Below, piece by piece: positions 4,907-23,483 of a DNA stretch of 35,910 nucleotides. The notes beneath the pieces were generated by a model. That model did not search any database. It saw only the letters and a list, made by a program, of their open reading frames with translations, and had not been told where the DNA came from. The stretch lies in the NCBI RefSeq assembly GCF_028292925.1, contig NZ_JAQGLK010000014.1:1-35910 (forward strand), given 5' to 3'. The first letter of the stretch is position 1; each line of letters starts with the position of its first letter. The translations under genes were made by a program, and so were the position numbers. Source of the DNA: Sphingomonas bacterium (lineage in GTDB: Bacteria > Pseudomonadota > Alphaproteobacteria > Sphingomonadales > Sphingomonadaceae).

Positions 4907-5863
4907 CTATACCGCAAGTTCGCTGAACAGTTCCTGCATATCCGACGGCATCTTGCTTTCGAACGATAAAGCGGCGCTTGTCACCGGATGTATGAAGCCG
5001 AGCCCCGCGGCGTGAAGCGCCTGCCGGCGAAACCCGAGTTTCTCCAATAACGCACGATGCGCCGGTCGGATCCTTCCGTAGGCGGGATCTCCAAGCAGCG
5101 AATGGCCTATCGACGCCATGTGGACGCGCACCTGGTGCGTCCGCCCGGTCTCCAGCCGGCACTCGACCAGCGATGCTTCGCGCAGCGGCTGGATGAGCCG
5201 GTAATGCGTCACCGCGCGCTTGCCGCGATCGCCCGACGCGATCGCCATCTTCTGCCGGTTGGCGGCGGACCGGGCGAGCGGCGCGTCGACCGATCCGGCA
5301 GATGGATCCGGCCTGCCGGATACGATGGCGCGGTAGCGCCGGTCGATGCTGTGGCGGGCGAACTGCGCCGCCAGCCCTTCGTGCGCGCGATCTGTCTTCG
5401 CGGCGACGATCAGCCCGGACGTGCCCTTGTCGATGCGATGCACGATGCCCGGCCGCGCGACGCCGCCAATGCCCGAGAGGCTGCCGCCGCAATGGTGAAG
5501 CAGCGCGTTGACGAGCGTGCCATCGTAATTGCCCGCGGCGGGGTGGACGACCAGCCCTGCCGGCTTGTCGACGACGATCAGATGTTCGTCCTCGTAGGCG
5601 ATGACGAGGGGGATATCCTGCGCCTCGTTATGCGCGGGGCGGGCCTCCGGCACGGCAACCTCGAACCGGGCACCGCCGACGATCTTCGTCGCCGGATCGC
5701 GCACCGCGACGCCACTGGCATCGGTTACCTGGCCGCTGGAGATAAGCGCCTTCAGCCGCTCGCGCGACAGGATCGGCAGCGCCGCCGCCAGCGCGCGGTC
5801 CAGCCGCCATCCGCTCGCGTCCGCGGCGGTCACCGCGCTATGTATCGACACCCCCGGCTCCAT
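4907..5863 (-). CDS. rluD: 23S rRNA pseudouridine synthase, RluD family
   Basis: A 318-residue RluA-family pseudouridine synthase; RluD enzymes modify U1911, U1915 and U1917 of 23S rRNA. An S4 RNA-binding domain covers about residues 18-70. The catalytic domain has the family motif HRIDKGTSGLIVAAKT with catalytic D145, and downstream RLETGRTHQVRVHM. The start is the ATG at 5861-5863, or the GTG at 5849-5851, which would remove four residues; the frame upstream of that is antisense to the divergent JAMM gene. RluD rather than RluC is inferred from the VDKPAGLVVHPAAGN block and the S4 domain; site specificity is not readable. Confidence 0.92.
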   Translation of the reverse strand: MEPGVSIHSAVTAADASGWRLDRALAAALPILSRERLKALISSGQVTDASGVAVRDPATKIVGGARFEVAVPEARPAHNEAQDIPLVIAYEDEHLIVVDKPAGLVVHPAAGNYDGTLVNALLHHCGGSLSGIGGVARPGIVHRIDKGTSGLIVAAKTDRAHEGLAAQFARHSIDRRYRAIVSGRPDPSAGSVDAPLARSAANRQKMAIASGDRGKRAVTHYRLIQPLREASLVECRLETGRTHQVRVHMASIGHSLLGDPAYGRIRPAHRALLEKLGFRRQALHAAGLGFIHPVTSAALSFESKMPSDMQELFSELAV

Positions 5864-5881
5864 CCCGTAGGCGAATTGGCC

Positions 5882-6271
5882 ATGCGCACGGTGATTGCAA
5901 GGGAGTTGCTCGAAACCGTTCTCGCCACCGCCGCCGCCGAACCGTACCGCGAGGTCTGCGGGCTGCTGTTCGGAACGATCGATCGTGTCGTCTCCGCCGC
6001 AGCCGTCGGGAATGTCGCCGCCAACCCCGCCGACAGTTTCGAGATCGATCCCGCCGCCTTGTTCGCCGCGTTGCGGGCGGAGCGGGCGGGGGGGCTGCCC
6101 GTCATCGGCCATTACCACTCGCATCCCTCGGGCCGCCCCGAGCCTTCGCCACGGGACGCCGCCGCCGCCGAGCCGGGGCGATTGTGGCTTATCGTCGGGG
6201 GGGGCGAGGCGCGCCTGTGGTGGTCGCAGGCGGGCGCGCAATTCGTGCCGGTCACGATCGAGGTAGCTTGA
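5882..6271 (+). CDS. JAMM/MPN+ metallopeptidase, M67 family
   Basis: A 129-residue stand-alone Mov34/MPN/PAD-1 domain. All zinc-site residues of the JAMM motif are present with exact spacing: E24 in REVCGLLFG, then H79-x-H81, seven residues, S89, two residues, D92 (GHYHSHPSGRPEPSPRD). It is therefore likely an active isopeptidase or metalloprotease. In bacteria such proteins often remove or process ubiquitin-like sulfur carriers. The nearest candidate here, moaD, is 4.2 kb away and in another transcript, so no partner is assigned. It is divergent from rluD, with 18 bases between start codons. chpT follows after 65 bases. Confidence 0.9.
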   Translation: MRTVIARELLETVLATAAAEPYREVCGLLFGTIDRVVSAAAVGNVAANPADSFEIDPAALFAALRAERAGGLPVIGHYHSHPSGRPEPSPRDAAAAEPGRLWLIVGGGEARLWWSQAGAQFVPVTIEVA

Positions 6272-6336
6272 AGGCCGGTTGCATCGGCAGAGTCTAGCGG
6301 CCACAAGGACGCATCTTCACGAGGCCCTTGCCACCG

Positions 6337-6987
6337 ATGCCACCGCCGCAGATTCGACCCGCCGATTTCGCCAGCCTGCTTTGTTCGCGCTTGTGCCACG
6401 ATTTGTTGAGCCCGGTGGGCGCGCTGAACAACGGCATCGAACTGCTTGCCGACGAGCATGATCCCGAAATGCGCGCGCGCTGCCTGGATCTGCTGGGCGA
6501 AAGCGCGAGGGCATCGGCCAACAAGCTCAAGTTCTTTCGCCTGGCCTTCGGGTCCGCAGGCGGATTCGGCGATGCGGTGGACGCGCGCGAGGCCAAGGCC
6601 GCGATCGAGGGGCTGCTGGGCGATGGCCGGATCGAACTCGGCTGGATGGTCTCCGAACCCGCCATGTCGAAGACCGCGATCAAGGTTCTGCTGAACCTCG
6701 CGCTGATCGCCGCCGACGCGCTCGTACGCGGGGGCCGCATCGACGTCGGCGCAGAATCCGGGGAAATCGTCATCCGCGCCGAAGGGCCCCGCGTCGTGCT
6801 GGACGCCGAACTGCGGACGGCCTTGCTCGGCGAAACGACGCCGGACGCGCTCACCCCCCGCGCCGCGGCGGCGTGGCTGGTCCACCAGCTCGTCAGTGAA
6901 CAGCGCGGATCGGTGATCGTATCGCCGGTCGAGGAGGGCGTGCTGATGCTCGGCGCGACGACGAAGCGTCGGCCTGCGGGGCGCTAG
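6337..6987 (+). CDS. chpT: Histidine phosphotransferase ChpT
   Basis: A 216-residue protein of the alphaproteobacterial ChpT family. In Caulobacter it passes phosphate from the hybrid kinase CckA to CtrA and CpdR, controlling cell cycle or motility. The phospho-acceptor is H21 in SRLCHDLLSPVGALNNGIEL, a DHp-type helix with the following Asp. The C-terminal half resembles a kinase ATPase fold but lacks nucleotide-binding motifs, as is normal for ChpT. The ATG at 6337 is chosen over a TTG at 6328 because GAGG at 6321-6324 is too close to the TTG. The CheA-like kinase follows after 71 bases. In this window no cckA or ctrA is seen. Confidence 0.9.
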   Translation: MPPPQIRPADFASLLCSRLCHDLLSPVGALNNGIELLADEHDPEMRARCLDLLGESARASANKLKFFRLAFGSAGGFGDAVDAREAKAAIEGLLGDGRIELGWMVSEPAMSKTAIKVLLNLALIAADALVRGGRIDVGAESGEIVIRAEGPRVVLDAELRTALLGETTPDALTPRAAAAWLVHQLVSEQRGSVIVSPVEEGVLMLGATTKRRPAGR

Positions 6988-7058
6988 TTCGGTAATGTTT
7001 CTTCTCGCCGCAGCGACAGCCGCAGCGGCAAACCGCAACGACCCGTTTACCGCTGGCG

Positions 7059-8648
7059 GTGCATGACGCCGCGGTGGACGATCTTACCGCCGATTTCATT
7101 ATAGAACTTCGCCAGCTGCTGGAGGCAACGGCGGGGGACATCGCCGATTGGGCGGAGTCGCCCGACGATCCCCGGCGGATCGACGCCATATTCCGGCTGG
7201 TCCACCGCATCAAAGGCAGCAGCGGCGCGGCCGGGTTGCCGCGCCTCGTCCGTCTCGCCCACGCCGTGGAGGATGTGCTGGCGGCCGTGCGGGCTGCCCG
7301 GCGAGCTGCGGACCCGGAGCTTGTCACCTGCGTGCGCGCGCTGCTCGACAGGATCGACGAGGTAGCGGCGGCGATGGCATCGGGCGAGGGGCTGGATGCG
7401 GCTGAGGACGATCGCCTGCTGGCCTCCGTCCGCGGCGGGACGCCCCTTGATCCTGCGACGCCGGCCGGGCCGGCCGAGCCTGCACCGCCACGCACGATCC
7501 GCCTGAACGTCGATCTGGTCGACCGGCTGATGCGCGTCGCCGCCGGGCTGGCCACCGCGCGCGATCGCCTCGGCCGGGATCTCGGGACTCCCGGCGCCGC
7601 TGCCGCGTTCGCCGCGCTCTCGGCGGGGATCGACGAGATGGACGCGGCGATCTCCGGCACCCGGGTTCAGCGGCTCGATCATCTGTTTGCCGCCTTGCCG
7701 CGCATGGTACGCGAACTGGCGGGCGAACTCGGCCGCGAGGTCGTGCTGGAAATGGCCGGCGGGGAGATCGAGCTGGACCGCGATCTGATCGCCGCGATCC
7801 GCGATCCGCTCGTCCACATCGTCCGCAACGCCGTCGATCATGGCATCGCCCTGCCGGAGGTGCGCCGCGCCGCCGGCAAACCCTCGGCCGGCACCCTTCA
7901 CGTCTCCGGCCGGATCGAGAACAATCAGATCGTGCTGGAGGCCGCCGACGACGGCAACGGCATCGATGCCGACCGGGTTGCCGCACAGGCGATCGCCGCC
8001 GGAATCCTGACCCCGCTGCAAGTCGCCCGGCTGAGCCGTTCGCGCCGTCTGGCGTTGATCTTCACCCCCGGACTTTCCACCGCGCCCGCCGTCACCACCG
8101 TCTCCGGGCGAGGCGTCGGGCTGGACGTGGTGCGCACCGGCATCGAAAATGCCGGCGGCACGGTGGAGATCGAGACGGAAGCCGGGGTGGGAACGCGGGT
8201 GCGGCTCAAGCTGCCGCTCCGCGCTGCCTCCGTCGCACCTGCGCCGATCACGGCAGTGGCGCCGGTGCCTGCCCCCCCGGTACGCAAGACCTGCCTGGTG
8301 GTGGACGATTCGCGGGTGGTCCGCACAGTTGCCCGCTATATGCTCGAGGGGCTGGATTTCACCGTCGAGGAGGCGGTGGACGGCGAGGACGGGCTGGACC
8401 GTTGCCGCGATATGCACCCCGATGTCATCCTGCTCGATCGCAACATGCCGGGGATGGACGGCATAGCTTTCCTGCGGGAGATCGGCCGCGGCGGATTCGG
8501 CCAGCGCCCCAAGATCCTGTTCTGCACCGCCGACAACGACGCTGCCAGCCTGCGCGAGGCGATGGCGGCAGGGGCGGATGCGCTGGTGCTGAAGCCTTTC
8601 GACCGTCAGACGCTCCATGCTCAGCTGGCTGCAGTGGGCGCAGCCTGA
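7059..8648 (+). CDS. CheA-like hybrid histidine kinase with C-terminal receiver, no CheW domain
   Basis: A 529-residue signalling protein. Residues 10-110 form an Hpt/P1 domain with the phospho-acceptor H49 in LVHRIKGSSGAAG. Residues 160-395 are a CheA-type dimerisation and ATPase unit: N box PLVHIVRNAVDHGI (H253, N257), G1 box DDGNGID, G2 box GRGVGLDVV. A linker rich in Ala and Pro leads to a receiver domain at about 410-529 with D460 in VILLDRNMPGMDG and a lysine in LVLKPF. The CheW-binding P5 domain that couples CheA to chemoreceptors is missing and the receiver takes its place. The start is GTG at 7059. Neighbouring chpT suggests a phosphorelay feeding CtrA-type regulators rather than chemotaxis, which is an inference. 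Confidence 0.9.
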   Translation: MHDAAVDDLTADFIIELRQLLEATAGDIADWAESPDDPRRIDAIFRLVHRIKGSSGAAGLPRLVRLAHAVEDVLAAVRAARRAADPELVTCVRALLDRIDEVAAAMASGEGLDAAEDDRLLASVRGGTPLDPATPAGPAEPAPPRTIRLNVDLVDRLMRVAAGLATARDRLGRDLGTPGAAAAFAALSAGIDEMDAAISGTRVQRLDHLFAALPRMVRELAGELGREVVLEMAGGEIELDRDLIAAIRDPLVHIVRNAVDHGIALPEVRRAAGKPSAGTLHVSGRIENNQIVLEAADDGNGIDADRVAAQAIAAGILTPLQVARLSRSRRLALIFTPGLSTAPAVTTVSGRGVGLDVVRTGIENAGGTVEIETEAGVGTRVRLKLPLRAASVAPAPITAVAPVPAPPVRKTCLVVDDSRVVRTVARYMLEGLDFTVEEAVDGEDGLDRCRDMHPDVILLDRNMPGMDGIAFLREIGRGGFGQRPKILFCTADNDAASLREAMAAGADALVLKPFDRQTLHAQLAAVGAA

Positions 8649-8760
8649 TCGTCGCGCGTACAACCCGCTTGACGGCGCCCGTCCGCTCGGGCCGAAGTGC
8701 GGTCATGATCGCTGCCGTTCCAATCGCATGGGGCCATGCCCGCCCGATACCTGCCGCCGC

Positions 8761-9501
8761 ATGGCAACCCGCATGAACGTGATCATCGATACACCGTCCC
8801 CCAACCAGGACGAGCGCAGCCTGCCCGTAACGTTGCTGGTTCTCCACTATACGGGGATGCAGGATGCCGCGGCGGCGATCGCCCGCCTGACCGATCCCGA
8901 GGCCAAGGTGTCCAGCCACTATCTGGTCGCGGAGGACGGGCAGATCCTGCGCATGGTGCCCGAGGATCGCCGCGCCTGGCATGCCGGACGATCGCACTGG
9001 CGCGGGATCGACGACATCAATTCGGCCAGCATCGGCATCGAGATCGTCAATCCGGGGCACGACATCGGCTACCGCCCCTTCCCGGAGGCGCAGATGAGCG
9101 CGCTGATCCCGCTGATGGCCGATATCGTCGATCGCCACGGCATCACCCGCGGCAACATCGTCGGCCATTCGGATGTGGCACCCGCCCGCAAGATCGATCC
9201 CGGCGAGCTGTTCGATTGGGAGCGGCTGGCGCGGCTGCGGCTCGCGCTGCCCCGCCCGCGCAGGCCCCTGACCGATCCGCACTGGAGCGACGGCGGGTTC
9301 CTCCTCGCGCTCGGCCGCTTCGGCTACGACACGCTCGACGGGCCGGCCGCGGTGCGGGCCTTCCAGCGCCGTTTCCGACCGGAGACGATCGACGGCGTGA
9401 TCGATGGCGAATGCCGCGCCATCCTCCTCTCCCTCCTCACCGGCGGCGACAAGGGGGCGGAGCGGCGCGCGGTGGGCGATGCGACGCAGGGGCGTTCCTG
9501 A
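8761..9501 (+). CDS. ampD: N-acetylmuramoyl-L-alanine amidase, AmpD-like, with peptidoglycan-binding domain
   Basis: A 246-residue Amidase_2 enzyme that cuts the bond between MurNAc and L-Ala, as in recycling of anhydro-muropeptides. Zinc ligands are H29 in VLHYTGM, H136 in GHSDVAPARKIDPG, and D146 in the same block; K144 is the usual catalytic lysine. The WHAG and IGIEIVNPGH blocks are also present. The last 70 residues form a peptidoglycan-binding-1 domain (FGYDTLDGPAAVRAFQRRF). No signal peptide is seen, so a cytoplasmic recycling role is likely. The ATG at 8761 is used; the ATG at 8773 is an equal alternative. No ampR or beta-lactamase gene lies nearby, so the symbol rests on the domain match alone. 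Confidence 0.88.
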   Translation: MATRMNVIIDTPSPNQDERSLPVTLLVLHYTGMQDAAAAIARLTDPEAKVSSHYLVAEDGQILRMVPEDRRAWHAGRSHWRGIDDINSASIGIEIVNPGHDIGYRPFPEAQMSALIPLMADIVDRHGITRGNIVGHSDVAPARKIDPGELFDWERLARLRLALPRPRRPLTDPHWSDGGFLLALGRFGYDTLDGPAAVRAFQRRFRPETIDGVIDGECRAILLSLLTGGDKGAERRAVGDATQGRS

Positions 9502-17020: not shown

Positions 17021-17075
17021 GTTACGCCATCATAAACCAGCTTTAACCCGTGTCGGAGGCTGGCTAACGGGGTGA

Positions 17076-22784: not shown

Positions 22785-23483
22785 CTAGGTCGTGCCTTCC
22801 GCATCGAGTGCGTAGCCTGCCGAACGGACGGTCCGGATGATGTCGGGCCGCCCCCCCTCGTTGATCGCCTTGCGCAGCCGGCGGATGTGCACGTCGACAG
22901 TTCGCGGCTCGATATCCGAATCGCGCCCCCAGACCGAATCGAGCAGCCTCTCGCGTGAGAAGACGCGGCCGGGATGTTCGAGGAAGTGGCGGAGCAGGCG
23001 AAACTCGGTCGGCCCCAGGGGCACGGATGCCCCGTCGCGGCGGACCTTGTGGCCGACAGTGTCCATCTCCAGCCCTGAATAGATCAACCGCTCCCCGGCG
23101 AGCGCAGGGCGCACCCGCCGCAGCACCGCGCCGACCCGCGCGACGAGTTCGCGCGGCGAGAACGGCTTGGTGACGTAATCGTCCGCACCCGTCTCCAGCC
23201 CCCGGATACGATCGGTCTCCTCACCGCGCGCGGTAAGCATGATGATCGGCACGTTTGCGGTGTCGGCGCGGCGACGCAGCCGGCGGCACACCTCCAGCCC
23301 CGACAATCCCTCGATCATCCAGTCGAGCAGGACGAGATCCGGCGCGGCCTCCTGCGCGAGCAGCAGGGCTTCCTCGCCGTCCGTGGTATGCTCGACATCG
23401 AATTCCTCGCGGCGGAAATGCCAGATGAGGAGTTCGGCGAGCGCCGGATCGTCCTCGACCAGCAGGAGCCGTCCGCGGCTCAC
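22785..23483 (-). CDS. phoB: Phosphate regulon response regulator PhoB
   Basis: A 232-residue OmpR-class regulator. The receiver has acidic residues D11/D12, the phosphorylated D54 (LVLLDWMIEG), T/S at ...MLTARG and K in VTKPF. The winged-helix DNA-binding domain includes LGPTEFRLLRHFLEHPGRVF, then RTVDVHIRRLRKAI. Phosphorylated by PhoR when phosphate is low, it binds Pho boxes such as 28862-28892. The start is the GTG at 23481-23483, overlapping the phoU stop by GTGA, so phoU and phoB are coupled. Last gene of the phosphate operon. Confidence 0.95.
   Translation of the reverse strand: MSRGRLLLVEDDPALAELLIWHFRREEFDVEHTTDGEEALLLAQEAAPDLVLLDWMIEGLSGLEVCRRLRRRADTANVPIIMLTARGEETDRIRGLETGADDYVTKPFSPRELVARVGAVLRRVRPALAGERLIYSGLEMDTVGHKVRRDGASVPLGPTEFRLLRHFLEHPGRVFSRERLLDSVWGRDSDIEPRTVDVHIRRLRKAINEGGRPDIIRTVRSAGYALDAEGTT

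Follow-up and report, generated by a model that had tools for sequence, protein, structure and literature searches.

The question raised by this locus is whether a chemotaxis kinase that has lost its receptors could have been brought into the relay controlling CtrA. The locus lies in a stretch of 35,910 nucleotides from a Sphingomonas bacterium (assembly GCF_028292925.1, contig NZ_JAQGLK010000014.1, positions 1 to 35,910 of the forward strand; hereafter the window), where the gene for the histidine phosphotransferase ChpT is followed, 71 base pairs (bp) downstream, by a gene for a CheA-like histidine kinase ending in a receiver instead of the CheW-binding domain (P5). Comparison with relatives strongly supports this second gene being the remnant of a che operon which once lay directly downstream of chpT, with the ATPase domain of CheA (P4) now joined in frame to CheY. 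Its product is tentatively read as a functional hybrid kinase that no longer answers to receptors and may exchange phosphate with ChpT as a second kinase or as a drain on the ChpT-CtrA relay.

To trace the origin of the fusion, kinase-core orthologues were searched for in 59 genomes, its own included (E<=1e-60). They were found in 19 relatives, with CheA open reading frames (ORFs) of 692-840 amino acids (aa), one of them (L071) truncated at 761 where its contig stops. Both of the kin CheA proteins that were scanned with Pfam carry a CheW domain. A separate cheY in the same orientation lies 1.4 to 1.8 kb past the end of P4 in 18 of the 19, the contig of L071 ending before that point. Because the window receiver resembles the CheY of these operons and begins at its first codons, the operon has evidently collapsed so that P4 runs into CheY. 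The relative G012 (locus L081) has the order rpoH, rluD, JAB, chpT, cheA, cheW, cheY, cheB, cheR, EamA transporter, amidase and dnaJ, with Pfam confirming CheA with its P5, CheW, CheB, CheR and the transporter, and the window has rpoH, rluD, JAB, chpT, the fusion, amidase and dnaJ. The two ChpT proteins are 80% identical and the P1, P3 and P4 domains of the two kinases are common by descent, with chpT just upstream in both, but the G012 CheA is 796 aa long, keeps its CheW domain (PF01584, 5.3e-20) and is adjoined by cheW, cheY, cheB and cheR. The simplest reading is that P5 through cheW, and also cheB to the transporter gene, were deleted.

By the core domains of CheA as given in PMC10782961, the window protein has a P1 with its histidine and a CheA-type P4, while no CheW domain was found in it by Pfam search at E<=0.01. 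Among solved structures it matches CheA chains best, over a region within residues 145-408. The P3 family PF02895 was likewise not matched in the Pfam search, though the segment aligns with kin CheA proteins, both of those scanned matching PF02895, and is modelled as a helical hairpin. With kinase core, receiver and catalytic residues on a single chain, the protein has the make-up of a hybrid histidine kinase. A preliminary description made from the sequence had placed a ChpT beside a CheA-like kinase with H49, N257, DDGNGID, GRGVGLDVV and D460, with a receiver at the C-terminus and without the CheW-binding domain, and all of this was borne out by alignment, Pfam domains and structural matches; its expectation that the kinase should be active also appears sound, judged by the residues. 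An AlphaFold2 model built on 32 sequences (mean predicted local distance difference test score, pLDDT, 87.4; predicted template modelling score, pTM, 0.49) folds P1, the P3 hairpin, P4 and the receiver each with confidence. Because of that pTM and the low-confidence stretches at residues 1-5, 137-146 and 390-405, the relative placement of the domains is undefined. The kinase start, GTG 7059, is uncertain, as the codon aligned with GTG 7074 begins most of the kin proteins; residue numbering would then shift by 5. In the alignment, where the kin sequences had been trimmed to the P4 end and the CheY start, nothing corresponds to the linker at the joint. Coordinates are collected in Table 1.

Table 1. 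Features of the chpT-kinase locus and flanking synteny markers (window coordinates)
Feature	Position	Strand	Remarks
chpT, histidine phosphotransferase	6337..6987	+	216 aa; H21; PF10090 at 2.4e-33 (Pfam search); PDB ChpT chains
CheA(P1-P3-P4)::CheY hybrid kinase	7059..8648	+	529 aa; possible start 7074; domains, alignment, model
P1/Hpt domain, phospho-accepting H49	7083..7361	+	Hpt, residues 9-101, 2.6e-16; helices in model
P3 dimerisation hairpin	7509..7655	+	residues 151-199; two modelled helices; aligns with kin
P4 CheA-type ATPase	7671..8222	+	N257, DDGNG, GRGVG; HATPase_c, residues 249-388, 9.6e-16; CheA structures
Ala/Pro-rich linker at fusion joint	8226..8282	+	alignment; pLDDT <50 at residues 390-405
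Receiver derived from operon CheY	8286..8636	+	D416, D417, D460, T490, K512; Response_reg, residues 413-523; 48-60% identity to separate CheY of 18 relatives
JAB-domain stretch, upstream synteny marker	5903..6223	+	PF14464; kin share order
rluD-like pseudouridine synthase ORF, synteny marker	4907..6304	-	PF00849; mechanical ORF; overlaps the JAB gene, true start probably further in
N-acetylmuramoyl-L-alanine amidase, downstream synteny marker	8773..9501	+	PF01510; start 8773 is the chosen one

An antisense ORF of 538 aa (7047-8663, minus strand) spans the whole kinase gene. No Pfam family was matched by it and it is probably a by-product of the high G+C coding sequence.

From the conserved residues, the product would be a soluble dimeric hybrid kinase in which P4 phosphorylates H49 of P1 and the phosphoryl group passes to D460 of the fused receiver. 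Without receptors and CheW, its activity would be basal or set by some other input. The receiver, which has lost much of the conserved output face of CheY but kept the residues for phosphorylation, would most likely exchange phosphate with H21 of ChpT, and the relay from ChpT to CtrA would thereby gain a second kinase or a drain, with a possible effect on CtrA. The neighbouring gene does encode ChpT, with the DHp-like histidine H21 within LCHDLLSP, an HPTransfase domain and matches to the solved ChpT chains 4fmt (8.2e-28), 4fpp (1.1e-27) and 4qpj (5.3e-24). It falls below the cut-offs of two NCBIfam equivalog models (159.8 bits against 225 and 157.3 against 240), which by name are those of Caulobacter and of Brucella/Rhizobium, and the gene occupies the place of the kin chpT. 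A bolder version, in which the P5-less CheA::CheY was recruited as a receptor-independent ChpT donor and became a new CtrA input in a flagellated, non-chemotactic lineage, perhaps even sharing or taking over the work of CckA, whose candidate gene has a stop codon in this genome, is possible but doubtful.

The preliminary description had taken the pairing of the two genes to suggest a variant route into the CtrA network or a separate phosphorelay. The pairing itself does not carry that suggestion. An ordinary cheA is preceded on its own strand by chpT, at a distance of 57-111 bp, in 7 of the 19 relatives; in another (L066) chpT lies about 1.9 kb upstream, and in the other 11 no chpT was found within the stretch taken around cheA. 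A table for Sphingomonas sp. WG also has cheR (gene 3280) near chpT (gene 3285) (PMC8921679). The neighbourhood was inherited from the che operon, and therefore adjacency alone is no argument for a functional link. Conservation of the gene pair, which had been named as a check, thus holds in part: the chpT-cheA pair extends beyond this strain, but the P5-less fusion was found only here among the matches listed. This was seen in a survey of 397 genomes of the family (266 with a match at E<=1e-45) and an overlapping one of 396 genomes of the order (151 with a match at E<=1e-90), three candidates being scored per genome; among the matches listed, only the window's own extends past residue 419. 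In the one congener compared (G001), CheA lies elsewhere at 33% identity and the ChpT match is broken off after 28 residues by the end of the contig. A contig search also returned 38 distant loci with weak peptide patterns of the kinase, which were not used.

Several points weigh against exchange with ChpT. The adjacency, being inherited, is weak evidence, and the fusion is confined to one genome among the matches listed. ChpT shows no sign of adapting, its end branch (0.23 against a median of 0.38) not being accelerated. The private changes of the receiver match the genome's own CckA receiver at 5 of 27 positions and CtrA at 2 of 27, figures that stand without a chance control. Two invariant residues at the edge of or within catalytic motifs have been replaced (T50R, adjoining H49, and M355L, within the G2 box), and the strong acceleration of the kinase is also what decay would produce. 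An active hybrid kinase with no link to ChpT, running as a closed loop between P1 and receiver, as a phosphate sink or in the service of another Hpt protein or response regulator, would agree with the inherited adjacency and with the lack of clear convergence on the CckA receiver. This is nevertheless rather unlikely: ChpT is the one phosphotransfer protein encoded adjacent among the neighbours scanned, and a closed loop without input or output would give no reason to keep catalysis.

It could also be suspected that the gene is a decaying relic of a lost che operon which by chance is still open. All of its domains are strongly accelerated. Among six relatives, identities between window and kin were 43-52% for P1, 49-53% for P3P4 and 55-60% for the receiver, against 61-77%, 63-73% and 72-81% between kin, and no such gap was seen for ChpT, RluD, the amidase and RpoH in five relatives. 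The end branch of the CheA core is about 6 times that of kin (2.11 against a median of 0.35) and that of the receiver about 20 times (6.79 against 0.32) and surely saturated, the tree program warning that the placement of so long a row is unsure. The rest of the operon is gone, and at 95% genome completeness no match was found in the whole genome for CheW or for a chemoreceptor (methyl-accepting chemotaxis protein, MCP). Despite this divergence 529 codons have stayed open, and base composition is of the coding type in P1, P3P4 and the receiver. Of 90 columns invariant in 19 CheA proteins, 6 lie in the deleted part and 66 of the remaining 84 are kept; the receiver keeps 37 of 48 columns invariant in 18 CheY proteins. 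None of 29 listed catalytic positions has been lost, against 29 of 132 invariants overall (hypergeometric 0.0003; 0.008 for a stricter list of 18), values which are descriptive only, since the lists were drawn up after the alignment had been viewed and omit the changed T50 and M355. Decay is on these grounds unlikely.

The state of the locus in relatives bears on the same point. CheW was not found in 16 of 50 genomes checked, the window's own included, a count which gives no rate as ten of the 50 were chosen for having no kinase match. Among the 15 other CheW-less genomes, chpT lies directly beside the amidase gene in seven, and in two it is separated from it by other genes (an EamA transporter in one, a TerB/DnaJ protein and an EamA transporter in the other). 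With no che domain between chpT and the amidase gene in these nine of 15, keeping the kinase core is not the common state. A different setting for chpT was seen in one further genome (G059), and in four (G018, G021, G031 and G062) no ChpT match was found at E<=1e-10 though flagellin matches are present; their chpT may be lost or too diverged. In three relatives with CheW elsewhere (G007, G014 and G060), chpT likewise adjoins the amidase gene with no che genes there, and a locus without che genes is thus common among relatives. In the remaining CheW-less genome, G026, which has flagellin matches, chpT is succeeded by a P1-like ORF that lacks the phospho-histidine, and behind this ORF a CheY-like receiver runs into the contig end (L098:3469-4316). 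This appears to be a second relic beside chpT and counts in favour of decay.

The window's genome has two Flagellin_N matches, and the fused CheY might on that account still serve the flagellum, acting on the motor without receptors. However, 8 of the 11 CheY invariants lost from the receiver fall at CheY positions 88, 89, 94, 95, 105, 106, 108 and 119 (Fisher 0.002 to 0.009 for the clustering, post hoc). These positions belong to the face by which E. coli CheY binds FliM. With the conserved output-face positions 89, 95, 106, 108 and 119 changed, and with a CheY tethered to its kinase likely to struggle to reach the motor, a motor role is highly improbable. That an intact operon was merely collapsed in assembly is barely credible. 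In its favour, the assembly is a draft of 224 contigs, the fusion was seen in one genome, and the cckA candidate of that assembly contains a questionable stop. Against it, each kin copy compared differs strongly from both halves of the fusion, CheW and MCP are without a match genome-wide, and a single contig spans the joint, its flanks intact.

Elsewhere the genome has ctrA and a candidate for cckA. A ctrA gene (C85:296-982) encodes a protein with 77% identity to Caulobacter CtrA (a hand-entered reference), and the best cckA candidate (L112, C66:26139-27845, frame from 772) scores 461.7 bits against a cut-off of 1000. One in-frame TAG interrupts the candidate between its N and G1 boxes, and the sequence past this codon is conserved in frame through the receiver; the TAG would be either a recent nonsense mutation or an error of the assembly. 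As a cause of the fusion it is improbable, since the fusion, by its divergence, is older. As a hybrid kinase with a C-terminal receiver and ChpT as its partner, CckA resembles what is proposed for the window kinase, but CckA is a PAS/HisKA kinase, as is the candidate by its domains, whereas the window kinase is of CheA type with its phospho-histidine in an Hpt domain. Two loci with weak PF10090 matches (L002 and L003) proved to be HisKA-type hybrid kinases instead. A response regulator of the CtrA/OmpR type, with 33% identity to Caulobacter CtrA, is encoded in the window at 22806-23471 (minus strand). A search of the window for the CtrA full-site motif gave a single site, at 17032, which contains a mismatch, is no more than chance would give and lies away from the chpT-kinase pair, and a promoter and terminator scan of 6000-9000 gave nothing exceeding shuffles.

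In its domains the window kinase resembles CheAY of Helicobacter and Campylobacter, described in PMC10782961, which likewise join a CheA core to a C-terminal CheY-like domain and have no P2. However, the CheA proteins in the survey described there, 13,673 in number, all have a CheW domain, whereas P5, CheW and MCPs are unmatched in the window kinase and its genome. As described, that survey recognises a CheA by its having both a kinase and a CheW domain, and therefore a CheW-less CheA core would be passed over. A limited literature search covering titles, abstract starts and passages showed no account of a CheA-CheY fusion that lacks P5 and lies beside chpT. The proposed role has a closer likeness in CcsA of Sphingomonas melonis, described as a hybrid kinase that feeds ChpT in addition to CckA (PMC7232146), a likeness of role taken from that description. 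ChpT is a plausible partner for the window kinase. Set against the intact operons of its kin, the locus illustrates the reduction of a chemotaxis system to a hybrid kinase beside the phosphotransferase of another pathway. It offers a concrete, testable case for asking if genes of a lost chemotaxis system can be drawn into the control of the cell cycle and, if the ChpT link is true, the fusion might feed the cell-cycle phosphorelay as a new input.
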